Assembly: GCF_000002425.4 (NCBI RefSeq) | Contig: NC_037271.1 | Span: 186,001-250,000 of the forward strand | Source of the DNA: Physcomitrium patens | Lineage: Eukaryota > Streptophyta > Bryopsida > Funariales > Funariaceae | DNA: 64,000 bases | Direction: 5' to 3' | Shown here: in pieces, positions 1 to 52,850 of the stretch | Numbering within the stretch: the first letter of the stretch is position 1 | Layout: every line of letters begins with the position of its first letter | Program-made: the position numbers and the translations under genes | The notes under the pieces: generated by a model | What the model saw: only the letters and a program-made list of their open reading frames with translations | The model's database searches: none | Told to the model about the DNA's origin: nothing

Positions 1-1393
1 ATTGTTGAATGCATGCAACCCTAAATCCTACCCCCAAAAGCTGTAGCTCCTCTGGTACACCCCACACAACGCGTCATCTCGAGGCGCCTCTGCATCGTGC
101 ATCGCCGCGGGTAAGAACAAGGTCCACCGCCGAATTACATGCTACGCTTGCACATCCTGCGACATAGGCATGTAGTCACCCATCGATTCATACAACGATG
201 GCGATGACCAACTCCCCCGTCCAACGATGCCAGTCTCCCCGCTCCGTCGCTCATAAACGGTGACTTTTTTCCTCCTCCCACGAAACCCTAAACCTGCTGT
301 CTCTACAAAACTGCCATTGTCTCTCTCGCAAGCCCCTACTCTTCTTCACTCCACGTCTTTCTCCACCCCCTTCCCTCGGTAGTATCTCATTGGCCACACT
401 TCCGTCTCTCTCAACTTCGAACTGCCGTCTGACCGCTCATTCTTCTTGTGCTTTGTAAGTAAACCTGAACAATGTGATTGTTGAGACATGACGCCCTCTT
501 GCTCTTCTGTGAAGCCTGAGGTAGCCTTTGATCGCAAGACTAGATAACCAAATATTGTGATTAGGGCCCGTAGAAGGGGAAAGGATAATGAGAGTGGCAT
601 CCAGGGGACGATGGTAGTATGGGATGGACGACGCTCTTGATGTGCCTTTCTCTTGTGCGGGCGCATGTGCCTGGTTTTGAGTGTAAACCTGGTCGCAAGT
701 GGGACCTCGTAGGTGATATTCAGTTCTAAAAACTCACATCTATGAATTCATAATTTCCACAGCATGGTTACTTGCTCATGTGTTCGGCTCACAGTTTTGT
801 GCTTCGCCTCATGTTTGAGTTGAGATAATTGTCAACTATCTACTTATAATGGTTCGGTCCTTACGAAAATGGTAGTAGATGAGGGTGTTCATTTGGGTGA
901 AGCAAGACGAAGAGGTCGCCTCTTGATTATGACTCATGGCACCCAAGGTGGAAACTCTGTCTCAATCAATACACATGGATTCTTTGCACGGAAATCGTAC
1001 TTTTTTAAATGGAAGTGTAATGGTGGCATTGTTGAACTGATATTGTTCTTCTGTAGCTGGAACTAAAGTGCATTTCTAAGCATTTTCAGTCTTCATATTG
1101 GAAGTACAAATCGCATCTAGAAAGTGGGTTATTGCTACACAAGGGTGATATGGCGAGGGAGTTGTGTTTCACAACTGTATTCATCTAATTCCCCTCCTGT
1201 TCACAACTGTCAAAACGGCCGACTTTACTCAGTCTACGACTACTCCTGTGGCCAGTTTCGATGACCTAAGACAAACGCTTTACAGCAGCCATCCCTTGTC
1301 ATGACTTGAACCTGTAAATTTTTTTAGTATCGCTTTTGTACTAAATTTATATATCTCTGGCATTAAACATTGGCTCCTTCATCTGCATGTAAG

Positions 1394-1424
<31 letters not shown>

Positions 1425-1750
1425 CTATTTGCTGGGACTTACAGAAAATACATAACTACTAATCTGTTTTTTTTTCCTTTTAAGATTGTAACAAGCATGT
1501 ACTTACATTTTGTAGATACAAATTTTGTATTATTATATGATTTCAGAGTTTCTCACTACAAATGCAATTTATAAAAGATACAATAATAAAACACGCAATT
1601 TAGCGAGAAAGTATGAGGTACCTCACTGTTTATTATATCCAAAAACATACACAATCAAATAATTCAAACTACCGCAAAGAAATATTGAAATCATACATAT
1701 CATACTCAAATCAAACATATCTAACATATCATACTAACCTATCAATCACC
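1..1750. other. Intergenic DNA, no supported gene
   Basis: Only short random open frames are present. Near 283-296 there is a telobox-like AAACCCTAAAC followed by pyrimidine-rich sequence (296-365), a combination seen at the 5' ends of many plant genes, but no convincing coding exon follows on the plus strand. A perfect (AT)n run occupies about 1393-1421. The rest is AT-rich sequence in which I recognise nothing. Confidence 0.5.
1393..1421. repeat. (AT)n microsatellite
   Basis: About 14 uninterrupted AT dinucleotides, directly visible. Confidence 0.9.
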
Positions 1751-1758
1751 TAAACATT

Positions 1759-4700
1759 ATGCTTGCTCTGCAATACTATAGCATAAGGACTCTCATCATT
1801 CTATGGCGAAGCGACTCCCTCCACGTGTCCTATGGTGTTCTCTACCATAGCGGACAATTCATGAATATGCACCGGACAATCTACGGTACCTCCAAGACTA
1901 ATGGACGCAGACTCAACATATCTGTAACTGCCAGGTTTACCGTGTCGCATGTGTCTTACGCCATCATCATTATAGTAGAAGCCATCTTTGAACAACATCT
2001 CTTGGTTTGAGGCGAAGGCCCCCTAAAATGCAGCAATGTCTTCTAATAAGCCAGATCTTGGAACAGAAGGCAATATAGGTCCCATATCACTTCCAGTACC
2101 TTCGACCCTCTCATGTATCTCTGATCCTGGCTCTGATTGAGAGGGCCCTAAAGCTTGCCGAGGCTGCATTGATGGAATACTCTACCTCGTAGGAGATTTA
2201 TCTACTTCTTCATCTGTGCTTGATTCCTCGTTGGTTGAGCTATTGTCAGTCAAGGAATATTTTGATCCAGATAAACGTGGCAATCTCTCATTCAAAGTTT
2301 GTTCCTCTTCATCGTCGTCCTCTTGCCTCTCTTCACCAATCGCCTCTTTGGTATCTTGTATGATATCTGGAGCACTACTTGTTCTGCATGCCGTCTCAGT
2401 GGTCAAGATATGCTCTTGGAAACTGTTGCACAATTCATCGTATAGGAATCTAGTCCTCTCCGTGCAATCGTCAATGATAATAATCTCGGATCCCTGGAAA
2501 TCCCCGAGAAGTATTGTAGGAATAGCAGACATACTGCATGCCACTAAACCCCAACCTCGAGGTAGGTATGAATCCACAAGTCTTGACAGCTCTGAAGGAG
2601 ATCTCTCGAGTGGATCAACTTCAGAAGGCTGCAGTGCCTCACTCCACAGATCTTGAAATACAAGTGGAAGTGGACTGTCCCCAGAAACATAGTTGGGGCT
2701 AGGGGAAGTACCAACAGGATGTTGCATACAAATCACAACAGCGCCAATTGGTTGTACTATTTGCTGCAAGCGCCCACTCTCTGTAAAATCAAGTACATAA
2801 GGATCAACTGAGTTGGCATCAAATGCCCAGAATCCATGTCGCATAGAACAACTTTCAGGAAGCTTCACCTTCGCAAACAACTCCTCATTGGCATATATGG
2901 CTGATGATAATAAGAAGATGACGTTCCATTGTTCGATGTTTGTCACCCATAATGCCAATTATGCAAAGGCTTTGGATAACTGCTCATCACCCCATAGACC
3001 ATCTCCATGCCTCTCACGGCCACGCCAACAATTAATCACACATAAGCATGATTTTCCTAGTTGTACGTGATCTGAACGGAATAACCCTCTTCTACATCAA
3101 ACCATAAGAGAGTTCTGTGGGTCATTCTGACCTGGCCTTTGAACTTGCATCTGCCATTCCCAACTAGCAGTGCTCAAATCTCCGACATCAACAGATAACC
3201 CATTGTATCCCCGTCCCCCTACTGCAACATTATGATAATGATATTTGATGGAAGGGGGTATGAGGTGGACAATGTCTTCCAGCTTAGATACCTTCCCTCG
3301 CACAGGAGCAGCCCATGCCGCTTTTATTAGAGCATCCAAATGCTTTGCCAAGGTATAAACCTGTTCCTTGCCCCTTGGAAAATACTTCATTATGGATATA
3401 CGAAAGAACTCCTCCATAGAATTTGGTGAACACTCTTTGTTGTCCACCCTCAACCAACGGATGATATTTATCACCGCTTCTTCTCACTGAAATCGATCAA
3501 CCGCAAAGGCAATGGTGCAATGTTGTGGATTCTTATCGTCTACACCAATGAAGTAATACTCTTGGCAAGGTCTCCGCCCGTTTGTCCCCAATGGCTTAGC
3601 TGTACAAGACTATACCAACCGTAGATAATATGAATCCGGAACCATGCTAAGGGGCCTCAACCAATTCTAAGTCATCACCTTTCGCTTCAGCCGCACATCC
3701 ACATTGGGATCCAACTCTTTCTTCTGTGCATACTGCTTCTACTTTTTCTCTTCTTTCTTGCTGTAAAAGAAAAGCCCGTCTTCATAGTCCTTGCACACGC
3801 TAATGATAGCTTCAAAGCAATCATCGCTCGGATTCCAGACATCACGAGTCAAGTCCTACATGTTTTTAGCCAACTTCTTAATTGACACTTCATTATTGTC
3901 AACCATCTTATGCAACCTATGCACTGCACTTGCCGCACTCACCAAAGCAATGCCTCTGCATGTATCGTCTGTGTGGACTGAGCTATCAGGCCTCCGGTAT
4001 AGATTCCAGATCTGGCGGAGCTTTATTAAATCCTCTTCCACGGTAGAATAAGATTTTCTCTCCCACTCTGTTATGTTGATCCGCACTGACTTATCAATAT
4101 AAAAACAACGATCATCATACACCACGAAGGTTGCCTCCCGCTGCTCAAATATCTCTATGTATTCAGTTCCTGGAATCTTATCGTTCCTCCACTCCTCCTA
4201 TGCAAACTTGCAAGCTGCCACTATGTATTGACCATCCACTAGCTCCCAAATAATATGATCTTGAAGCCAAGCATATTGGGATCCTTAGACACCATTTGCA
4301 GAAGCACTCCCCTGTGTAATGAAGTCGCGTTCAAACTCTCGTGCTGCTCCTTCAATCGGAAACGATACCTCTTGCAGCACAACCGTACCATCGTCGGTAG
4401 TAGTATGCAAAATGTATCGAATTGGTCAAAGTACCAATTTTCTCATCCGGGTCCTGGATTCTGGATCTCTTAACAGGTGATATACATCTCTAGCCCTCTT
4501 CTGTGATAAAACTTGATGGTTCGTCTCTGGATTCTCCACTGAGACAATGCGGTCTATGTGTGCATTAAACACAATATTCGCCCACAAAGATCCTTTCACA
4601 ATCTCATCCGCTGTAGGCACTAGAACTTTGGACCTATGTGAACTTTGAACGTCCATTGGCATCTCTCTTTCCTCCTCTGAATCTTCATGGGGTCGATCCT

Positions 4701-5618
4701 TAGGTTGTGAAACTCCTCTTCCTCTTGCGACACGGTCGACAAGTTTACAGAACCACCAAGCAAAGATGCAGAGACCCTACGATGATATGCACATGCTCTG
4801 CGTCCCGACCTAGGGACCCGGCCACTCGATCTTGAGGCTCTCTCAATCAACCTCGTACCACCTGCATCCAAACCCGAGGGGCCTCTACCAAAACCATAAG
4901 GTACATCCCTCTGATCACGTCGTGGCCGCTTCAAAGGACGTTCACTTTGTATTGGAGGATTAGCTGATGCTGGCGTCTGAATTGATGCGGTAGGATGACG
5001 GTCCTCACGCCTACGGCTCACCCCTACAGGTTGCCAATCCAATTGTGTTGGACGTGCAAGAGCTCAAAAAACTTCTTCCGTCTCTTCTGGTTCCATTGGT
5101 GGAGCTTGAGCTGCTGCGCTTGTTGGATTTGTCGCCCGTAATGCCTCATATCTAATATGTTCATTCATAATCCTCTTAGCCCGCAGCACCATTTCTAGCG
5201 ATAACTCCAAACAAGCCAAGACATTATTATGCCTAGCAGTATGTACCGCAGGATGTATGTTCACCCAAAACGTCTGCTATGATTTGAGTAATTTCACTTG
5301 CCCTGGATTCTGGATGAGACTTGTAGGGACGGGTGCTACAAGCAACTTCTTAGAAAGAGAAAACTTCACCGACGTTGTATCAGAATTTGACGCCATTACA
5401 TATTCCATATCATCAGGTCGACTTGAAATTGCTTGGATTTCCCCAAAACGGCTCCTCAATCCTGATGTACGCTTCGCTAGCTCAAAGGGATAAATAGTCA
5501 CCCACAAGAACGGCTTAAATGGCTCTTCTTCCGCAATCCACCAGCCGTGGCTCTCCCAATCCTTGTTGATGTTTGGTGCCATAATGCCACACTCAAAAAA
5601 CCTGAATGTCATTATCAT
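1759..5618 (-). pseudogene. Long decayed intronless ORF of unknown function (~1,290 codons)
   Basis: Reading the minus strand from a Met codon at 5618, one frame stays protein-like to about 4640. After a single shift near 4620-4662, a second frame stays protein-like to about 1759. Along this 3.86-kb path I see about 15 in-frame stops, for example near 5275, 5055, 4423, 4199, 3853, 3739, 3674, 3488, 3096, 2960, 2181 and 1800, but only one frameshift and no clear introns. The text between stops is not low complexity. There is a basic patch (RPLKRPRRDQR) in the N-terminal third, a block with KGSLWANIVFNAHIDRIVS, and a C-terminal acidic stretch (QEDDDEEEQ) followed by a Ser/Thr/Glu-rich tail. I see no zinc knuckle, DDE, RT or helicase signature and do not recognise the family. 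It could be the protein of an undescribed mobile element or a dead single-exon host gene. That it was once one ORF is well supported; its function is unknown. Confidence 0.7.
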
Positions 5619-6126
5619 ACAATAGTAATCGTTAATATGGTATATGATTTAGTCTTGCTTGTTTAGTCTTTCAAGCCACTAATTTACCACAAACTAAACT
5701 TACACATCAGATACCACTTCTACAGAACTTACACCTCAAAGAAATCAATGTGTTGCCATCTGTCACCATGTAGAAAAGGACATTGAACATCAAAATATCG
5801 AACACGAAAAGGTTAGGGTATCTTACGGATATGGTATTTGTAGGATACCGCAGGGGTAGGCTACTTGTAGGAGATCGCAAGGTAGGCTATACACTAGATT
5901 CGGGTATCAGAGGGTTATATCAAGATCTTGGGCGTTCCTTGAGAAGTGCACAAGATCTTGTGATCCTCACAACGAAACCCCTCCAAGGAATGTCTTGCAT
6001 GGACCAACAATGGAGTGATGAATTGCAACAAAATTAGCAATAGAAATGCTAGCACCCCTTCAATACTGTGTAAGGCACACCCAAGAAGTAGAATCAGTCA
6101 AGTTTCACTTCCTATTATCTTCATAA
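5619..6126. other. Intergenic spacer
   Basis: Upstream flank of the long minus-strand pseudogene. No ORF or repeat is recognised. A small 84-codon plus-strand frame (5783-6037) lacks coding character. Confidence 0.4.
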
Positions 6127-7568
6127 TTAACCCCTAAAGGACCAAACCCCCCTAGAGGTGCGTTTTTTTTATCTTAGGCAAGTACCTAAAATTTGAAAAA
6201 AATCTTTTTTCTTGAAAATTTTATACTAGATAGTCCCTAATAAGAGCTTTGTGGAGAAATTATTTTAGTTTTCTCTAGATTCATGGTTGAAAAGATAGTA
6301 CCTCCCAAAGTCAAAGATAGAGGCGTTGGATAGCTCTAAAATTTTGCTAGAAAATTCTATTAACATTGACGTTTTTCATACATATAGAGAATATTACCTT
6401 CTTTGAAAATGTCAAAAAAAAACTCTTGCCTTTAGTGTAAAAAAACATTTTAACCTAAATCAAACATTGTTACACATTTCGAGCAAGGGGAGAAAAAACT
6501 TCATCCTTTCTACATAAAACCTAGAGATCTTCATATTTTTCACTTTTTATTTTTTCAACAAAAATATGTGGTGTAAACCTTCTTATTGGCCATTTGGATT
6601 ATCATTCTGAAACTTATTAACCTTAAGGTACCATGACAGTTACACACCAAAAACAGTTCAAAACTCTTGGATTCTAGTGAAATGAACAAAGAAAGAAACA
6701 AAAACTTTTATTTATATTTTTGACCATATGATCTCAATTAAGACTTGTTAATTAACATAATTGCAAAATTTTATAAACTTTGACTTCACGGATTGAAAGA
6801 TTATAGTGTTTGAAGTGAAGCGAGTGGTTCATTTTCTTCCTTGTGTTTAGTGGATCAGCGGACTTTGACTTAACTTGGTGTCAAATTTCTGCATTACACA
6901 AGGTATATATCCAATACCATTGTGTTAATCATGATGTTAGTTCCTTATACACCAATTTTTAGAGGTAGAGGAGGGGTGTAACATATTCAAAACAACTATG
7001 CAAGGAGTAGGGGTTAAAAAATTGCCAATTCATGTTTTTTTTTTTTTTTTGTGAACTTAATATGATTTAGATTGATAATCAAAATGGTCAACAAAGGTTT
7101 ACACTAATATTTATTGTGGAAAAAATAAAAAGTCAAAAATATGAAGATCTCAAAGTTTTATGTGCAAAGGAAGAAGTTTTATGGTACCTTGCCCGACAAT
7201 GTATTACAATGTGTGAAAATGTTTGACTTGGGCTAACATGCTATTTTTCACTGAAGACAAGAACTTTTTTTGACAATATGAAAGGAAACAATATTACTTG
7301 CTAGTATTGAAAATTTCACATTCATTAGACTGTCATAGCTAAAGTTTTTGGAGGTGGCCAACATGCCCGTTCTCCCCAAATAAAATTCAAATCCCTATAA
7401 CTTTTTCATTAAATATTGGATATGGGAAAAAATTCTTCCCTCATTGAGGTATTAGTAATACCCATCTACAATAAAAATTTCAAAGATGAATGCTATAAAT
7501 TGACACTGTAGAAACCTGACCGAACCTTCAAAAAGCCCATTTTGGGACACTTGGCTTTTAGGGGTTAA
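6127..7568. mobile_element. Palindromic (foldback) repeat, copy A
   Basis: The unit begins TTAACCCCTAAAGGACCAA at 6127 and ends with a close inverted version (GGCTTTTAGGGGTTAA) at 7568. Internally the first half (for example 6500-6620) is an imperfect reverse complement of the second half (7040-7150), so the whole forms a hairpin with arms of roughly 700 bases. No transposase-like ORF is present. Copies B (11269-12673) and C (20640-21290) are homologous. This is the structure of a non-autonomous foldback or MITE-like DNA element; the superfamily cannot be told from sequence alone. A 30-base poly-A run (7574-7605) and a further arm-like fragment (to about 7810) follow directly. Confidence 0.7.
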
Positions 7569-7574
7569 GTTCAG

Positions 7575-7607
<33 letters not shown>

Positions 7608-8240
7608 TGATATGGCAATTTTTGGACCTCTACTCCTTGCACATGTTTTTCTTGAATTCAAACACTATAATCTTTTGATCCGTGCGGTCAAAGATTTTTA
7701 AAATTTTGTGAGTATGTTACTTAGTAAGTCATAATTGAGATCCTACAGTCATAACTATAAATAAGAGTTTTGTTTTCCTTCCTTACTCATTGCACTAGAA
7801 TCAACAATTTTGAAGTGTTTATGGTTTTTAGTAAGAAAGGTAGATATAAAGCTCAGAAGACTTACCCAGACGTGTAGCTAGTATCATATGAACCTTGCAC
7901 AGACAATAAGATTGCAACATCAGTCAACACCTTATAATGGTATTGTGGAATATTTATATATCTGTTAAAAAACTAAGCAAATGTGTCAAAACTTCAATAA
8001 TTACGCTAAGAACCTGGCGTGTTCCCAACAATTGCCATTCAAGGGGGATCAAAGGATGATTATGCTAAATTATCGTTATGTAAAGCCCTACAAGGATCTC
8101 AATAAGCTGATAGAGGCAGCCAAGTCAAGATACGGGGAACACTCTAAGACCATTACATTGGTAGCAATTGCCAATGCACAAAACATAGGATACGAGTGTG
8201 AACCATAAATGAAACAATGACTCTTTATCGACACCCCATG
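7569..8240. repeat. Poly-A run, arm fragment of the foldback repeat, then a small open frame
   Basis: 7574-7605 is nearly pure A. 7606-7810 matches parts of the foldback family (for example 7640-7700 is an inverted match to about 6780-6830 of copy A). 7981-8208 holds a 75-codon open frame with balanced composition that I do not recognise; it may be an exon remnant. Confidence 0.4.
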
Positions 8241-8244
8241 CTTT

Positions 8245-8580
8245 GCATCCGCTCCCCGTCCGCTCCTCATCTGCACCCTGTCCGCACCCTATCCAGGTCC
8301 CGTTCGACAGGGCCCGGATAGGGTGCGGACGAGGAGCGGACAGGGAGTAGACAGGGAGGGGATCGGGAGCGGACGGGGAGCGGATGGGGAGCAGACATGG
8401 AGCGGACGGGGAGCGGACGAAGAGCGGACAAGGAGCGGACGGGAAGTGGACGGAGAGCGGACGGGAAGTGGACGGGAAGTGGACGGACAACGGATGGAGA
8501 GCGGATGGGGAGCGGACGGGGAGCAGACGAGGAGCGGATGGGGCTGACGGGATTGGACGGGTGCGGATGGCGAAAGGCGA
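8245..8580. repeat. 11-bp G-rich minisatellite with strand-switching hairpin
   Basis: From about 8320 to 8575 the plus strand is a tandem array of an 11-bp unit (GGGGAGCGGAC and variants). At 8245-8300 the complementary strand of the same unit is present. The switch point is a hairpin centred near 8305, with GTCCGCACCCTATCC on one side and GGATAGGGTGCGGAC on the other. The Arg/Ser/Gly/Asp-rich plus-strand frames and the Pro/Ser-rich minus-strand frame here are products of the repeat, not genes. Confidence 0.85.
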
Positions 8581-8689
8581 ACAGATTATCGGGTAAGAAG
8601 CTCTCGGGCGGTCATTGAACAACACATTCAGGGGTGTGCGCCCGCACACCCTTTGAGCAGTGAGCCTACCTTCCAAACCAATTCTAAGT

Positions 8690-9005
8690 ATGTGCACTTT
8701 GAGGTCAATGTGAGGTCTATGCAGGTCGAGGTCGACGTGAGGTCTGTCCAAGTCGAAGTGAAGGTTGACGCGAGGTCTGTCCAAGTCGAGGTCAACGTCG
8801 ACGTGAGATTTGTCCAAGTCGACGTTGAAGTCTGTCCAAGTCGACGTTGAAGTCTGTACAAGTCGACGTCGAGATCTGTCTAAGTCGACCTCAAGGTCGA
8901 CATGAGGTCTATCAAAGTCGATGTCGAAGTTGATGTTGACGTCGACGTGAGGTCTGTCCAAGTCAAGGTCAACGTCGACGTCTGGGCAAGTCAAGGTCGA
9001 AGAGA
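8690..9005. repeat. GTCGAC-rich minisatellite
   Basis: Degenerate tandem array built on GTCGACGT, GAGGTC and CTGTCCAAGTCGA blocks, with longer units near 30 bp such as GAGGTCTGTCCAAGTCGA. The minus strand reads as Asp/Val/Leu/Arg/Pro/His repeats, explaining a 289-codon minus-strand frame (8125-8994) as a by-product. Confidence 0.8.
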
Positions 9006-9019
9006 GATCACCTCAAGGT

Positions 9020-31735: not shown

Positions 31736-32685
31736 GTATCACCCCACTTACAAAGCAAAAATTTATGGTTGATAATTCTGAAGAGCTACTTGGAGAAGAA
31801 AATGGCACCTCTACATGTACACAAGTATGTTGCAATACTTGTAGATGGAGCTGATGGATACTTTTCTCTTCCTATTGAAGAAGCATTAAAATTACATAGA
31901 ATGCTTTGTAATGATGCACTGAAGACCGAATATGAGTTGTTCTTACCCACTTGAATCTTTCTGTACTCAAAAAGAAGCCTACATTACTATCAAATGACAA
32001 CTTTGAAAGGCCTTCTCAGTATCCAAAATTTAGTCACAAAACTGGGAATTCCACCAAAAAGAACCATGAATAATATATGTATGACAACCTCTAAACTAAG
32101 TCGTACTCAATTGAAGTCCTCCAAAAACAATAAAAACAAAAAAAAGGGAAAAAATAGAAAAAAGAGAACTTCTAATAGAATTCTAAGGTTCATTCCAAAA
32201 TGCATCACAAATTTTTATCAATATAAAACATGATACGTTGTCATTTAGCAACATTGGCTAATGAGATTTATGAAAGAAATTCATATGCACCTTCTATTCG
32301 AGTCAAAAGTGCCTTAACATTTGCTAGACAAGCAATAGGATGGAGTGGCAAGCATATAAAGCGACAACTTCAACAAGCAAGAGAGTGGAGAAGTGCCGAA
32401 GTAAGTCAACAAGCATTGATACAAGTGGGGCAATTCCTCTATGATGGTTGGGAGCAAAATGATCCAAGTATTCGTCCTCTCATCTTTGAATTTCTTCACA
32501 ATGCACATTGGTTTGTTTATAGTAGGGTCGTAGATAGACGTGTAGATGGCTTAATGTTAAAGAAGACCAATAGTCGTACATATTGGAAAAAGGATGGAGT
32601 GTATGAAGATTGTGTTGGAGGAGCTCGCCACTTCATTCAAGAATATGGTACAAATTGGCGGAATCATGTTCAATCCATTGCATAG
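31736..32685 (+). CDS. Multi-exon fragment of an unidentified gene
   Basis: Three exon-like pieces are visible. 31736-31826 (after CTATAG, before donor GTATGT) reads KQKFMVDNSEELLGEENG. About 31971-32071 reads LLSNDNFERPSQYPKFSH and ends in TAA. About 32260-32685, after CATTTAG, is open to a TAG and reads YERNSYAPSIRVKSALTFA, IKRQLQQAREWRSAEVSQQA, FLYDGWEQNDPSIRPLIF, then YGTNWRNHVQSIA. The last piece is clearly non-random and rich in Arg, Gln and Trp. No domain is recognised. The stop ending the middle piece suggests a dead copy. This could be a host gene fragment or a DNA-transposon protein. Confidence 0.35.
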
Positions 32686-35576: not shown

Positions 35577-38402
35577 GAGGGGGTTGAAACAGAACATCGC
35601 TGTTGCACCTTTATATCAAACTATCAACTTGGCAACCACAGCAGAATCTCAGACAATTAAGGTCTACGAAGGTACTAAAGAACAAGAGTTGATTTGCTGG
35701 ACCGAATTTTTCTTGCATCATAAATCCGTTTTTGCTTGAACTTATGATGATTTAAAAGGTATTTCCAGTGAAGTCTGTGAGCATCGTATTATTTTAGAGG
35801 AGAACGCTAAATCTTGGTCTGGTAGAGGTAACATCACCTTAATCCTAAATATTCCCTCATGGTGAACGAGAAATTGGACAAGCTTCTTGCGGTTGGTTTT
35901 ATTTACCTGGTACCAAATAGTGAGTGGATTTTTCCAATCGTGATGGTGCCAAAAAAGAATGGAAAAATTTGAATTTGTCAAGATTTCTGGAAACTTAATG
36001 CGGCCACCAAGAAAGATTATTTTTCATTGTCCTTCACGGATAGTATGTTGGATGCTGTAGCAAGTCATGAATATTATTTGTTCCTAGATGGATTTTTTGG
36101 CTATAATCAGGTTCAAATTGCAATGGAAGACCAGCTCAAGATGACCTTCACTACGGATTGGGGCACATTTGCTTATCGCGTGATGCCTTTTGGGTTATGT
36201 AACGCTCCAGCCATGTTTTAGAGAGTGATGACTCAGGCCTTCTAAGACTATCTCTGGTTGTTTATGGAGATCTTTTTAGATGACTTCTATGCATTCAGTA
36301 CAAAACAAGATCATTTTAATTGTCTCGGCAAATGCTTGGCTCACTGTGCTAAGTTTGGGATATCGTTGAACTCAGATAAGTGTCAATTTGGTGTTCCGTC
36401 AGGAAAATTATTGGAACATATTATCTCTAGCTGTGGTATTGCTACAGATCCAGACAAAGTGACACATATAATGAACTTGCCCAGACCAGAGACGGTCTCC
36501 GGTGTTCGAGGGTTCGTTGGCCATGTCAGTTATTATCGACAATTTATTCGTTCATTTGCAGTTATTTGTCAACCTTTAACAAACTTACTGAGGAAACCTC
36601 TCTTAGATGGAACTAGTCCCATTTGGACCATGGAGTGTACCATGGCCTTTGAAGCATTGAAGTCAAAATTAGTCTCTGCACCAATATTGGTGGCCTCTCG
36701 TTGGACCCATCCCTTTCATATGTATGTTGATGCATCCAATGTGGCTATTGGATCAGTGCTAAGTCAGAAGGATGACCATGGTCTGGATTATCCTATCTAT
36801 TACGCTAGTTGATAATTAGTGGCTACTGAATATAATTATACTACTTCTGAACGAGAAGCGTTGGGTATGATATACTTGGTTCAAAAATTTTGGCACTATT
36901 TGCTTGGATATCCATTTGTCTTTTATGTGGATCATGATGCCTTCAAATACATAATTAATAAGCCTCAATTGAGTTGACATATTGCTCGATGGGTGTTATT
37001 ACTTCAAGAATTTAATTTTACTATCAATGTACGACCATGAAAGAAACATGTCAATGCGAATCACTTGTCCCGATTGTCCAATATCATGGATAATGAGCCT
37101 ATTAATGATACACTTCCTGATGCACAATTATTTGGCATGAAAGTGATTACAACCGACTATAGTGAATTGATTCAATATTTGACATTTCAGACATTCCCAC
37201 CTACATATAGTGAGAAACTCAAGAAACGATTGATTTTAAAAAGTCCACCGTATACAATGATGGAAGATGCCTTATATAAGCAAGGTCGAGATGGAATTCT
37301 ACACTGATACATCTTTTCCAATGAAGTACAATCGATACTAGAGGGATGTCATTTGGATAGTTGTGGTGGACATTTCGCGGGAGACAGTATTGGCTCGCAA
37401 GGCTTTAATGGCCGGATATTGGTGGCCCACAATGTTTTCTAATACGCACCAATTTGTTCGTCATTGTGATCCCTGTCAATGAATTGATCGACCCATGGAT
37501 ATTTTAGCAATGCCGTTAGTACCGATCTTGGCACAAGCACCATTTGAAAAATGGAGAATTGATTTTGTTGGATCCATTGCATCAGCATCAAGACATAGAT
37601 AAAAGCAGTATATTTTAGTCACTATGGACTATGTAACCAAATAGGCGGAGGCTATTGCTACCCGCAATGATAATGTCAGTACGGTGGCCACTTTTTCTAT
37701 ACGAGAATATTATTACTCGATTTGGGTGTCCGAAGGAATTGGTTAGCGATTGTGGCACCCATTTCATAAAATGCTACCATAGCAGCCATGACAAACACAT
37801 ACGAAATCAAGCATAGGAAAAAACCATCATATCATCCTCGGGCCAATGGGCAGACGAAAAAGACCAATGTTATTCTATGTAAGATTTTAACCAAAATAAT
37901 TTTGAGCGCGAGAACAGATTGGGATACTAAATTGTTTGCGAAATTGTGGGCATATCGTACTGCATATGAAGTGACTACCAATTCCACACCATTTCAATTG
38001 GTGTATGGACAAGAAACAATATTACCAATTGAATTGGAAGTTCAAAGTTTACGCATTACGTTGGATGAACGTCTTAGAGATAAGGAATCACTCCAATATC
38101 GATTGGCAGAGTTAGACAAATTGGATGAAATATGGGCTACAGCTGTCTTCAACATGGAAGCAACTCAAAAACGGAGGAAGAGTTACTATGATAGTAAACT
38201 GCGTCCGAAGAGTTTTATGCCCAATGATTTGGTATTGTTGTATGATAGTAGGTTTAATCATTTTTCAGAAAAATTTCAAGTTTGCTGGCATGGACCATAT
38301 CGTATGATTGAAGGATTTTTCAATGAGTCTGTTCAATTGGAGGATTTCATGGATCATCGATTCAGTACCCATATTAACAGGAACCGATTATATGATACAT
38401 AA
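35577..38402 (+). pseudogene. Ty3/gypsy pol remnant (reverse transcriptase, RNase H, integrase)
   Basis: The 5' end is cut off abruptly at telomere-like repeats, so gag, protease and 5' LTR are missing. From 36027 one frame runs through RT: LDGFFGYNQVQIAMEDQLKM, VMPFGLCNAPAMF, and the catalytic box FLDDF (36270-36284). The RT thumb has GFVGHVSYYRQFIRSFA, and RNase H includes MYVDASNVAIGSVLSQ and TSEREALGMIYLVQKF. Stops at 36220, 36243, 36810, 36976 and 37305 lie in this same frame. The integrase begins after a frame change: CDPC remains of the zinc finger, with Asp in KWRIDFVGS and in LVSDCGTHF. The third catalytic residue is gone: the motif reads NGQTKKTN where Glu is usual. The C-terminal integrase tail is open to 38402. 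The element cannot be active. Confidence 0.9.
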
Positions 38403-42399: not shown

Positions 42400-43593
42400 C
42401 CAAATCCCTTGGTCACTGTTATGGCTATCAAAATGGATGTCATTTATGGTACTTGTGATCTTGTCAGGTCTCGACCTAGTTTAGCCGTCAAATCTATTAC
42501 CGCTTGTCTATCTGATGTAGGTGTGGATGCTATGTGCTTCATGTTAAATGTACATGATTTATCAAGTTTATTTGGAGAAATTATCCATCTAGTCAAACGT
42601 AGAATCCACGTGAGGGATTTAGAGTATTTTCAAACTTGGTTGCACGTGATTTTTGACCCCGTACTTGTGAAGGTGAATATCAGCGACATAGCTAAAGAAA
42701 GAAAGTTTCACAAGTATGCCATTTTTCGAGAGCTACGGAGGAACCATCGATTGGTACTAACTCTCAGCAATAGCAGCATGGTTCTTTTCAAAAGCCAAGT
42801 GAATGTCCCCATTCGAGCTATAGTAGATGCGCTCCATGCTTGTGGTCATGTAGAGTGCCGAGTCGGATTCTCTGGAATGAAGTGGGCCTTCCTAAAGGCC
42901 CAGCCTAAAATTGACTTATTTGTGGAGTATCACATGATCCTTCATGGCACAACAACTGTGGTTACAAGGAACTAGTTCAACATTGGGATCGTGGTGCCAA
43001 CAAGAACGGTACATATCTTTGGCTTTGATAAAAGTCAATTCCGCCCCCATCGAAGGTTTAGGAAGGCAGACATGTACAAAATGTTCAACACCAAAAAGCT
43101 TGGTTCTCTAGAATTTGGCATCCATAGATGTGAAAGGATCTGAAAAATCAAGATCTACTAAGAGTTGTGCTACGAGGTAGTTACTGCAATATCAAAGGAC
43201 AACTTGGATGATGTACCGCAGACAATGCGAACAATGCATACTTGGATGGAACAAGTTGTAAACTTATCACGAGCTTGAGAACAATATAATGGCAATGACC
43301 TCAAGGAGCACCTTTTGGGTACTAGGATTGAAATCACAGTCCTTGGTGTGCACACGATTGGTGACGCCTATCGCATTTACCTCACCTTAGATGTTTTACA
43401 TTTGGGGGGCATCGAAAAGATGTTAGGGGGAACCTTTTTGGTCCGACACATTTCTATCGATGAGGTTTTTGGAAGCTTAAGGTCGAAGATCCAACAGCTA
43501 TAAGGATTGGTGCGTTGGTGGCAGCCGTTTCTTCATCAATAAGTACGGATAGAATTGGAGGCGGTATGTAAAAGCTAGGCCTTAGGACTCATG
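42400..43593 (+). pseudogene. Decayed ORF of unknown function (~395 codons)
   Basis: One frame runs without any frameshift from about 42400 (after CTTCGTAG) to about 43593, interrupted by in-frame stops near 42973, 43141, 43159, 43276 and 43501. Text includes KMDVIYGTCDLVRSRPSLAV, SDVGVDAMCFMLNVHDLSSL, RELRRNHRLVLTLSNSSMVL, GHVECRVGFSGMKWAFLKAQ and LGTRIEITVLGVHTIGDAY. It is ordinary, soluble-protein-like sequence. I recognise no family. It lies upstream of the telobox Myb pseudogene on the same strand, separated by about 2 kb that includes a solo LTR, so both could come from one gene later split by insertions; that is speculative. Confidence 0.6.
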
Positions 43594-45628: not shown

Positions 45629-47384
45629 ATGTTGTTGATTAGGGACCTTACTCAGTAATTGGGCGATCCAATTCCAAACGAAATTGACGTCGACCTAGCT
45701 TTATAATATCTTCAAGGACTCGAGAATTCGCTTCCCACTAAACCTACACAAGAGTTGGAAGAGTCTGTACGAGGAGGGCTCCTGCACCCTGTATTAGAGA
45801 GGAAAGATCTCGAGCGACCTCTCTTAGAGCTGAAAAGCGAGCTTTGAATATCGCTTGGTGAAAAGAGAGTGGATGCCCAACAAGCGAAGGTCATCCAAGA
45901 TGAATTGAGAGTACTAGCGACCAAGGCTTGGATTTTATTGGATCCACTCATTTTGGAAGAATTTACAGCATCCACTATTATTGGAAAGGGGAGCTTGCGA
46001 GCCCAATCTTCGGTACGGTCCCCTCATCCAATGGCCATTCCTGATTTTGAGGATCGCAGCTTCCATGACACACAAGAAACCTTGGCCGACAAGAGGTTCG
46101 AGTAGTTGGAGGGAGCACTTCGAGCATCACTAAGTGAGCTACAAAACATTCTTGATATCAAGAGGTCGGTTGTAGTATTGGAAGATGCCCATCTTTTGTT
46201 GAAGAAGCTTGTGAAGGATCAAGCAGAAGTATCTAAACAGCATGTACTTTTGAAAAATCCAGGGACTATCTCTCAGTGTTTAGGACTCAGTGTTTTGAAC
46301 CTGCGTCCTTTAGCTCACGCACCAAGTTTGGAAGATGATAACATGTTTGAAGATAAAGACAGGCCCTCTTCAAACGCACACTACTCTCAGCTTTCTTTTG
46401 AGTACCCACATCCTAGTAATTCACAAGATCCTTTTTCGTCTCCATCACATCCCCTTCTGCTCGACCCGAGCCTCCACAATATCAAAGAAACTGCTCGTGC
46501 CTTGGAATCATCTTGGTCTCCTTCCAAAATCACATGTACGATAGGCTTTGTGCATGGAGCACAGAGAGAGAAGCTTCCTTTTCAGGAGATTGACCTTTGC
46601 GATGAAGTGCTGATTTGTAATTTTGAGCAAATTGTACGTGAATGTAAACACGATAAGTCTCCTCTTGGGATTGGATCAGGCTCGACACAAAGATGAACAC
46701 AAAAGAAATGGTCGGATGAAGAAGTTGAGCTTTTGAAGCAGAGAGTCCAAGAGCATGGGAAAGGACATTGGAAGAAGATTTTGAATGACAATACAGATGC
46801 ATTTTGTGGGTACACTGAAGTCGACTTGAAGGACAAATGGAAGAACTTGGAGAAGTACGAGAGGCTGTGAGTTCTTCGAATTTGCCACACTACTCATGTA
46901 GGTGTGGACTTATACTTGATCAACCAAAAATCCTTCATAGCTGGTTTTCATTACTGTATTTTATATCACTTTCATTCACATGTCAAAGTATTCACATCAC
47001 TCTCATTCTTGTCTCAATGTGATATACGAAAATTGAGACTCATAAAAAGCTCGGGTCTCCAAAAACTGTTGTGGACATTACTTTGTGTTTGATTTTTGAC
47101 CTATGTTAGGTTTTTTCTATTTCCCGGTCACATAATCTTTCACTTTTAAATTTTGATTTGTTATATTTTCATTCATGATTCTTGCAAAACATGGATGAAG
47201 CCTTCAATTGATTGCAGAATCAACCGAAAGTTGGATACTTGGTGAAGAGCAGCTTGAATATCACAATAGAGAAAAATTCAAATGGGTGGTTTTTAGGGTT
47301 CAGGGTGACAATGTGTGTGCCGGTAGTAGTGCTGCCTCAACGAGTACTCAATCATTGTTTTCCTCACTCAATTTATCTTTGTGA
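45629..47384 (+). pseudogene. Telobox Myb (TRF-like) telomere-binding protein, pseudogene
   Basis: One frame runs from an ATG at 45629 to 46866 with five in-frame stops (about 45650, 45703, 45856, 46103, 46694) and no frameshift. The N-terminal 350 codons are a Glu/Leu-rich, unassigned region (DAQQAKVIQDELRVLATKAW; SELQNILDIKRSVVVLEDAH). The C-terminal end is a Myb/SANT repeat: KKWSDEEVELLKQRVQEHGK, then GHWKKILND, then VDLKDKWKNL, the telobox helix that reads the TTTAGGG repeat in plant TRF-like and single-Myb-histone proteins. Right after it AGGCT meets a consensus GTGAGT donor (46867). After an intron ending TTGCAG (47217), 47220-47384 reads EEQLEYHNREKFKWVVFRVQ, then a Ser-rich tail and TGA. 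The simple donor-acceptor join is out of phase; an alternative AG at about 47229 restores it. The intron argues against a processed retrocopy. Myb identity is firm; subfamily is inferred. Confidence 0.8.
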
Positions 47385-49452: not shown

Positions 49453-52400
49453 TCAATATATATCCTCTACGTCTTTGCCCAATTCGTCTTCGTCATCTTC
49501 ATTATCCGAATCACTTTCATCTTCTTGCTGCGGAATCTCTATACCTTCATTAAGGCCTTCCATATTCATCTCTGCGTGTCTTCGTTTAAATATTTTTACT
49601 CGCTTCCTTGCAATTGGTATTTTCAATTTTGTACCATCTAACTCCCGTAACGAGTAAGTCGCATTATCATGAACAATTGTTACTACATATGGTTCAAACC
49701 AATGTTTTGAAAATTTCCGCAAAGTACTATGTTGATTATCCAGACTATTGTCATAAACAAGTACCCAGTCACCTTCGTCGATCGCTTTTGGTCTCAATCA
49801 ATGTTGCTTATTGAATCGCGCCTTGTTTTGTAGCCTTGCTCTTTTTAACCTTCCCAATGCTATCTGGACATCTTCCGTTCTTTGCTCCAATTGTCGAATT
49901 CTAATAGCCAAAAGTTCTTCTCTTGTCAATCCATCTTCCCATGATAGCATACTCGAAGTAAGTACCTTTTCTTCAATCGGCATAATTGGTTTTCGACCTG
50001 TCATAAGTTATACTAGCATATATCCTGTCACCAAACTATGTGTTGTTCGATCAGCCCATAATGCAAATGACAAAAGCCGTGGCCACTCTTTAACTTTCCC
50101 ATTACAAGCTTTAACTAATGCTTTCACAATCGGTGGGTGACCGCGTTCACTTTTTGCATTCCCTTCCAGATTATAAGCAGTAGTCAGTGATAGTTTAATT
50201 CCACATCTTTCAAAGAACTTACGAACTTCTTGTGCATTTGATTCTCCATGATCTGCAGTGATTTTTCCTACGCATCCGTAGCGGCAAATGACATCTTCGA
50301 CGAAAAACCTACAAATCCCCTATGTAGATTTTGTCCTCAATGCTCTTCCTTCTACTTGATTTGATAATTCTTCACGAGCTAAAACCAAATATCTCATCTG
50401 CCATAATCCAACAGGCATAATAACCAAATCAACAACCCATTTAAAATGAATAGCCAGAGGATACGTAAGATGAAGACCATCTCGATGTTGGATATTAGAA
50501 TACGATTGACAGATTTCACATGACTCTACAAATGAGAGCACATTTCGGTACATATTTTTCCACCAATATCGTTCCTTGAGTTTAGCAAAAGTAGCCCAGA
50601 TTCCTCTATGCCCTGCCCATAAACTATCATGAAACTCCTTTAATAATTTTAGTTTTTCTTCTTTTTTGCCTATCACTCGTTGTGGCATCCCAATTCCTTT
50701 CTTCGGTCTTTTCCATAAGAATCCATCTCGAAGTAAAAATCCATATGCTTTTTTCCTTGTTTGTTTGAATTTTTGTATAGATCAATTCCCCTACTTAGTC
50801 AAGGTATTCAAGTAATGACCAATATCCAATAATTCTCCTTCATAAGATTCTTCAAGAAATAGCTTGTCTTCTCTGTTGAGATTTGATATTGAATAGAATT
50901 TCAATCCGACGTCATCAATGTCTTCAACCATTTCGTCTTCCCTCTCGTATCTTGCTCGAGATAGCATGTCTGCTACTAAATTGTCCTTCCCAGTGATATG
51001 CTTAAATTCTGGATTTAGTGACTTAATATAAGCAATCCATCTCAACATTGCAATATCTGGCGTTGAACAGTTAATAATCATTCCAAGCAATGGCAAGCAA
51101 TCTGTTTCAATTACTACTACTGCCCCAATCAAATAGTCCTTTTCAGCTTTCATAGCCGAAACGACTCCCCAAAGTTCTCTTTTGACTTGCAAATATGCAC
51201 GCAGATGATTACTTAAAACTTTAGCCCCAAATCGAACTGCAAATCGATTCCCACTGGAATCATCTTGACCCACAGCCCATCCAACGGCAATTGGACTAGC
51301 GTACACAGTAAGAACCACTGGTCTATTGCACTTATAATCAATCTTCCTCAATATTGGAAGTGACATCAATAATTTCTTCAATCTTTGCATTGCCTGAATA
51401 TGCCTTTCATCTCATTAAAATCGGTAACCTTTGCGTAACTGTTCATATAATGGATCCGCTATGTGAGCAAAATGAGGGATCCAGATTCGATAAAATACAT
51501 ATGCACCCAAAAACCTACGAACCTCTATTAAAGAATCACAATCCTCTTTCATCGTTCCAATTGCATCAATTTTAGTCGGATCTGGTTTTCTTCCGTAAGA
51601 TCCACATAAATGTCCAACAATCACAACCTCTCGTACTCCAAATACGGACTTCATACCCGATAATGTAAGATGAACTTCTCCAAGCCGAGTTAAAATCTTT
51701 TCACAATCTTGTATATGATCAACAACATATTTCTGACACCCCCTCTTATCTATAGTTTCATCCTTGTCTCCTTCTCTGCACCCTTTTATAGGAACATCAT
51801 CCAGAAAAGGCGTAGTCTTTTCCGGAATAAAATCTCTCAATACCTTATTCATCCCATTCATCATATGCGCATCTGAGTTGGTCGCGCCTTGAGGAAGAGT
51901 GCACATTCTAACCAATCCAAGTGGTGTCCTCATTGTTGTCATAACTCTACTTCCTTCGGCAAGTTGAAATTGATCATAACCTGAATACAAGTCACCCATT
52001 GAATAGATCACCCTTCCAGCAAACGCCTCAGCAAATTCATCCACAATAGGTCCAATTCTTGCATTCCTGACAGTTACTGCATTCACTGGTTGCATATCTT
52101 GAATAAACCGTAGTGACCCATTCTTCTTAGGTATCGTAAACCATCGACTAGAATACAGCGCAAATGAAGGTTCTAATATTTTCATCTTTATCTTTTCTTT
52201 TAATAGTTCAACCAATTTAGATAAATGTGCCCTCAGTTCTAGAATCGGTCTTGGATTCCAAGGTACATGTGGTACAGTGAAGATAACCATAGGTGTTACA
52301 ATATTTGGATCCACACACCCAATTTCATGGGATTCGAAGGCAAACGATCTACCTTGTTTAGCCAACATCTTTTTGAAGCAAGTAATTTCCTCCGACAATA

Positions 52401-52850
52401 AAGAACCATCAGAACCATCTTCAATTCTTCAAAAGTCTCCTTACTAAACTGATGTCCAATACTCATTGGATCTCTTAAACTTGCTTCTTTTGATGCTTCT
52501 CTCATTTGTTCTTTAGAATCTTCTGGTAATGGTCCGGCAACAGGCTTTACCTTCTTATCTGCCGTTTTATATCTCGTCTCTACAGTGACTTCTGGTGCTT
52601 GAAAAGATTCATGTATGGTATAAACCTCTCTTGAATGAATCTCAACAATCTTATCATTATCTCCTAACCCAATAGATGTAATCAATTCCAATGAATCCTC
52701 CAGTCCATTTTCTTCATAAATAACTAAAATCTTCTCATCATCTTGCAATGTTCCTAATTTGCATAATTTTCCTTCAATATCATATAATCTTTTTCTTTCC
52801 TTTCTTTTAAAATCATCAACTTTCTTATACATAATATTTCCATTCTCCAA
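49453..52850 (-). pseudogene. gypsy pol: reverse transcriptase, RNase H, integrase
   Basis: RT (52398-51415) reads DMQPVNAVTVRNARIGPIVD, GDLYSGYDQFQLAEGSRVM, LPQGATNSDAHM, and the catalytic FLDDVPIKG. RNase H (51390-50791) has TVYASPIAVGWAVGQ, where family members have Asp for Tyr, then KRELWGVVSAMKAEKDYL and ETDCLPLLGM, so its first catalytic acid is lost. Integrase (50688-49453) keeps the zinc-binding H-H-C-C (EFHDSLWAGHRG; CEIC) and all three DDE positions: KWVVDLV, TADHGE, SERGHPP. The C-terminal part reads EGDWVLVYDNSLDNQHSTLR and ends in an acidic tail. From 51415 down, RT end to integrase share one frame with a few stops (TAA/TGA between RT and RNase H; TAG near 50318). A frameshift near 52300-52400 separates the linker (52850-52296) from RT. 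It is a relative of the gypsy clade with a long acidic or coiled gag, distinct from the 35.6-kb element. Confidence 0.9.

Follow-up and report, generated by a model that had tools for sequence, protein, structure and literature searches.

A large broken reading frame, probably a decayed low-copy gene, in subtelomeric DNA of Physcomitrium patens

A broken reading frame of ~1,277 codons in the moss Physcomitrium patens is best explained, at a rough probability of 0.6, as the pseudogene of a large, low-copy protein gene that selection once maintained and that later decayed where it lies, in subtelomeric DNA. The frame lies in a stretch of 64,000 nucleotides (contig NC_037271.1, here C19, positions 186,001 to 250,000; the window), to which all coordinates refer unless a contig or locus is named. 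It runs from start to stop, contains a module of 159 residues with a record of past purifying selection, and exists as a single full-length copy around which the ends of an element were not found. We infer that the frame belonged to the host, either from the outset or by an ancient capture, rather than driving the multiplication of an element.

Architecture of the frame

The frame is on the minus strand, starts with an ATG at 5582, ends with a TAG at 1750-1752, and contains 15 internal stops and one frameshift. Its N part (4710..5582, minus) comprises 291 codons with two internal stops, i.e. TAG at 5277-5279 and TGA at 5064-5066, while its C part (1750..4722, minus) comprises 990 codons plus the terminal TAG, with 13 internal stops. 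Frame analysis placed the single frameshift in the zone in which the two parts overlap (4710..4722, minus). Including the terminal one, the C-part stops are nine TAG, three TGA and two TAA. The longest stop-free stretch of the ORF (2182..2958, minus) spans 258 aa, and the acidic tail starts inside it. Upstream of the ATG, the frame stays open to 5648. The GC content is 45.4% in the ORF and 39.5% in 5583-6170; directly past the ORF stop, it falls from ~45% to 25.5% (1314-1749, i.e. from the ORF stop to the edge of the neighbouring repeat).

The 13 stops in the 990 codons of the C frame compare with a mean of 55.9 (sd 14) in 1,224 sliding 990-codon frames of the window, two of which had stops as few. 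Moreover, the best low-stop segment of the ORF scored 439, while 200 resamples of the region under an order-2 Markov model reached at most 302. Another low-stop segment, elsewhere in the window, scores 669 and is probably one of the Ty3/gypsy elements described below. Finally, position-1 GC was higher than position-2 GC in all five parts of the C frame. The ORF is thus confirmed as an open frame far beyond chance.

An earlier note on this DNA had described an intronless ORF between 5618 and 1759 with about 15 stops and one frameshift, dead by point changes. The counts given above bear out the number of lesions and support death by point changes; the frame itself also stands, although its ATG and stop lie 36 and 9 bases, respectively, from those ends. 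The acidic C-terminal region that was claimed is seen as net charges of -7 and -10 in C-part residues 751-800 and 801-850, and the claimed basic N-terminal patch is present but mild (+4 and +3 in N-part residues 201-250 and 251-291). An open frame agrees with the word intronless, although a pseudogene cannot prove it. For a plant host gene, 3.8 kb with no visible introns is unusual, which counts against that reading; a lack of visible introns also fits the ORF of an element, a retrocopy or an acquired gene.

A conserved module and its relative on contig C27

In a search of the 470-Mb P. patens genome (101 contigs) with the C part (991 residues), in which three candidates were scored, we detected the C part itself and one further place, C27:5243500-5243976 (E<=0.001). 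This relative (E 1.2e-17) aligns with query residues 162-322 at 31% identity and has three TAG inside; by local tblastn, identity between the window module and the C27 relative (L004:5003-5473) was 29.8%. The shared region, which is the sole stretch of the ORF with a relative, is a module of 159 residues (DGQYIV..FYS; C-part residues 163-321; 3760..4236, minus) that opens with the motif DGQYIVxACK, common to both copies. The local alignment score of the two copies was 219 and the best of 200 shuffles scored 53. The homology ends sharply at both borders of the module, and in nine of nine frame tests there was no similarity beyond C-part residues 163-321 to the same strand of the C27 locus.

Over 186 aligned codons, the identities of the two copies at codon positions 1, 2 and 3 were 0.41, 0.59 and 0.28, respectively, and shuffled pairing gave 0.27, 0.32 and 0.25. 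Conservation is therefore seen at positions 1 and 2, with position 3 near chance, a pattern showing that, as read from the aligned codons, the amino-acid sequence of the module was once under long purifying selection and that silent sites are saturated. On this reading of the codons, the ORF is a real former gene.

The C27 relative is located ~50 kb from the end of its contig and, as judged by eye, adjoins gypsy-like coding remains. It sits in very AT-rich DNA (26-30% GC), the C27 copy having 26% GC versus 45% in the window ORF. Approximately 3 kb away, an uninterrupted ORF of 200 aa (L004:8433-9032, plus) matched only itself in the P. patens genome (E<=0.01) and had no match in Pfam (E<=5). 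Thus, both members of the family, in the window and on C27, are broken and lie in repeat-rich subtelomeric DNA, which weighs against the reading as a decayed host gene.

The earlier note had assigned the ORF to no recognisable family, and searches of Pfam, NCBIfam, PHROGs and the PDB, which gave nothing above chance level, agree with this. Pieces of the window ORF had no match in Pfam (E<=10), and the C27 piece had a chance-level match to KIF1B (E 0.096). C-part pieces gave two matches in NCBIfam far under the cut-offs (E 0.17 and 0.071), and in PHROGs two chance-level matches, to phrog_7866 (E=0.87) and, over C-part residues 198-240, to phrog_27123 (E=0.017), the function of which is not known. 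Against PDB sequences, we obtained four chance-level matches (E 0.22-1.8) in one search and none in a second. With tblastn, the pieces first used matched neither plasmids nor phages, while further pieces gave three plasmid matches at E 2 and five phage matches at E 1-9. Short-peptide scans of IMG/VR, which distant relatives could escape, confirmed no relative, and none was confirmed in GTDB genomes. In the accessible parts of the literature, including that on subtelomeres, we did not find the ORF family described. Separately, AlphaFold2 prediction for C-part residues 330-790 from one sequence had a mean pLDDT of 40, too low for a fold search.

A single locus in a unique island

The ORF is located in a unique island of ~4.9 kb (1314..6170), defined by a subtelomeric repeat on one side and a foldback repeat on the other. 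The subtelomeric repeat has its edge in the window (1..1313) and runs on leftwards beyond it (L005). With 40 of 80 candidates scored, window 1-1313 had at least 39 other matches of ~700-1,320 bp at 85-91% identity. Of these 39, 25 are no more than 260 kb away from the start of a contig, and the remaining 14 include at least three near a contig end, once on C8 (~1 kb) and twice on C19 (~157 and 176 kb). On C8, the repeat recurs in tandem every ~3,251 bp, and the spacer between its units (~395 bp) has no match longer than 60 bp in the first 20,000 bases of the window; nothing indicated that the ORF interrupts the subtelomeric repeat.

The foldback-type repeat (6171..7932) belongs to a family that contains nested inverted repeats and has diverged copies on C19, C17, C7 and other contigs. 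It has 66 matches elsewhere in the genome at 65-100% identity, the value of 100% referring to a 30-bp piece; 22 are on C17, 22 on C19, nine on C7 and 13 on others, and six more are internal to the query stretch.

Other features of the window were recorded as well. Dense direct repeats of 11 bp and 33 bp (8239-8981) overlap a low-complexity open frame of 295 aa (8125-9012, minus). Ty3/gypsy-type remains, with matches to reverse transcriptase, RNase H and integrase zinc-binding domains, are present at 50320-52428 (minus) and 36246-36812 (plus). Three open frames of 152-196 aa (32227-32685, 42400-42975 and 46106-46696, all plus) have no match in Pfam at E<=0.001; at E<=5, the only one with matches is 42400-42975 (DUF2007, E 0.039; AcMNPV_P18, E 0.065; both under the cut-off).

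The earlier note had proposed that the ORF might be an undescribed mobile element, for which many full-length copies with terminal repeats would speak, and one locus for a host gene. In its own genome, the ORF behaves as one locus: neither the N part nor C-part residues 329-776 had a second place at E<=10, and a DNA probe (window 3000-3600) was unique. In the ORF flanks, no terminal repeats were found, the longest exact flank-flank matches being 13 bp (inverted) and 12 bp (direct), although decayed or short ends could escape such a comparison. The note had also seen no motif of the DDE, reverse transcriptase, helicase or integrase type; consistently, transposase, reverse transcriptase, integrase and helicase profiles had no match in Pfam to the N and C parts (E<=10), and NCBIfam gave chance-level matches to C-part pieces (E<=10). 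These profile searches thus returned at most chance-level matches, with no strong match to a known transposase or retroelement. In total, the ORF holds up as long, dead and outside any recognised family, and the protein family behind it as real, but the proposal of an undescribed mobile element is left unsupported by one full-length locus, one domain-level relative and flanks in which terminal repeats were not found.

Under a narrower version of that proposal, the ORF would be what is left of an extinct, low-copy and undescribed kind of element with a single large ORF. This would account for a long frame without visible introns, for its death by point changes within a repeat-rich subtelomere, and for the fact that both family members are broken. 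Large-ORF plant DNA transposons include KDZ, Sola and Academ. Compared as a group, these and similar elements have a single ORF of 1,000+ codons, as here; the window ORF differs from them in having no Pfam match (E<=10), no terminal repeats that we could find and no full-length copies. With a single full-length copy, no terminal repeat detected and no matching profile, we consider an extinct element unlikely.

Foreign-origin readings, decay and meaning

Two resemblances seen by eye, in the motif order near DGQYIVAACK and in a stretch like a methyltransferase tail (approximately C-part residues 700-770), suggested a fusion between a DNA-binding protein of the ParB/Srx type and a degenerate adenine or cytosine DNA methyltransferase, of a phage-like kind, and the weak PHROG matches described above (phrog_27123 and phrog_7866) could be counted in its favour. 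ParB_N and DGQHR proteins, which have the ParB/Srx fold, carry a DGQ motif followed by a characteristic order of short motifs. Set by eye against these motifs, the window module has a DGQ motif and a similar order; it differs in its length of ~159 aa (DGQ...FYS), in having a conserved C-terminal half of its own and in lacking profile support. Similarly, phage fusions of ParB to an N6/N4 methyltransferase are large proteins, and by eye the window ORF also has a possible ParB-like part before a possible methyltransferase-like part, but in its translation neither DPPY nor DPFxGSG was seen and the profile tests were negative.

Membership of ParB_N (PF02195) was not supported, as no window piece matched in Pfam at E<=10 and PF02195 had no matches in the genome at E<=1. 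In hhalign against a profile of 81 viral ParBs (those of phages P1 and N15 were left out) plus Spo0J, the probability was <1% in four of four runs, and profile-profile similarity of the module to ParB was likewise not supported; hmmsearch --max with the ParB profile scored -2.0, and at least 12 of 500 shuffles scored higher. A profile of 78 viral ParB-methyltransferases (78 of 80 fetched loci passed the length cut) gave <1% in three of three runs, with at least six of 500 shuffles higher. An identity as an N6/N4 DNA methyltransferase (PF01555) was not supported either: there was no profile match, and DPPY and FxGxG motifs were not seen in the translation. The genome contains three weak PF01555 places, under the cut-off and none at the ORF locus, which from their translations we take to be putative housekeeping methyltransferases. 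Because the query side consisted of one or two sequences, the ParB and methyltransferase profile tests are weak negatives. Altogether, we regard a ParB-methyltransferase fusion as doubtful.

Insertions from giant viruses are known in the genomes of moss and spikemoss. Endogenisation of a gene from a large DNA virus, or the uptake of other foreign DNA, would fit an ORF with no family match, a relative in DNA of 26-30% GC beside an uninterrupted ORF of 200 aa that matched only itself (E<=0.01) and nothing in Pfam (E<=5), and a window neighbour (42400-42975) with a chance-level match to the baculovirus family AcMNPV_P18 (13.4 bits, E 0.065, versus a cut-off of 25). By contrast, no relative was found in phage records or by short-peptide scans of IMG/VR, which distant relatives could escape, the window neighbours tested pass no viral-family cut-off other than for retroelement domains, and the GC content of 45% in the window ORF is high beside the 26% of the C27 copy. 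We therefore hold a viral or other foreign origin to be more doubtful still. A long shot that combines several of these ideas is a eukaryotic family built around a DGQ-type (ParB/Srx-like) DNA-binding module and encoded by large low-copy subtelomeric genes that are now dying, in which a captured prokaryote-style DNA-partition or modification protein would once have acted on chromosome ends. Least credible of all is a chance or composite assembly of unrelated pieces: a relative that covers just 159 of ~1,277 codons, with sharp ends to the homology, would suit it, but the stop density, the Markov control, the excess of position-1 over position-2 GC in five of five C-frame parts and the continuity on one strand with a single frameshift speak otherwise.

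Returning to the decayed gene, its protein would have consisted of a discrete module opening at the DGQ motif, between a mildly basic and probably disordered N-terminal linker and a long acidic tail. If we were to guess at a function, this protein may have handled nucleic acids, with a DGQ module like a ParB/Srx-fold binding pocket; this guess follows the resemblance of motifs, and the profile tests failed to back it. A large gene would first have been under selection and would then have decayed in place in the subtelomere, its loss proceeding mainly through point changes to stops, plus one frameshift. Each stop type can be reached by a single C-to-T or G-to-A change, which fits decay of methylated DNA but is no proof of it. 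On the plus strand, the observed/expected ratios in the ORF and the whole window were 0.64 and 0.62 for CG, 0.75 and 0.67 for CAG, 0.79 and 0.68 for CTG, and 1.18 and 1.09 for TAG; depletion of methylatable sites (CpG, CAG and CTG) in the ORF is thus no stronger than in the whole window. Moreover, coding-strand TAG (CTA on the plus strand) falls below expectation in the ORF (0.78 versus 1.06 in the window), which counts against a special methylation-driven decay. Decay of the ORF through cytosine methylation is possible.

Decayed genes that retain one ancient relative at the level of a domain are familiar and, as it stands, this one is of an ordinary kind, without known relatives outside its own genome in the collections searched. 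What sets it apart is a module with clear past selection that the profile libraries searched do not recognise, and of which both members in the genome lie broken close to the ends of chromosomes. Should other plants have intact relatives, the module would be a new domain to characterise.
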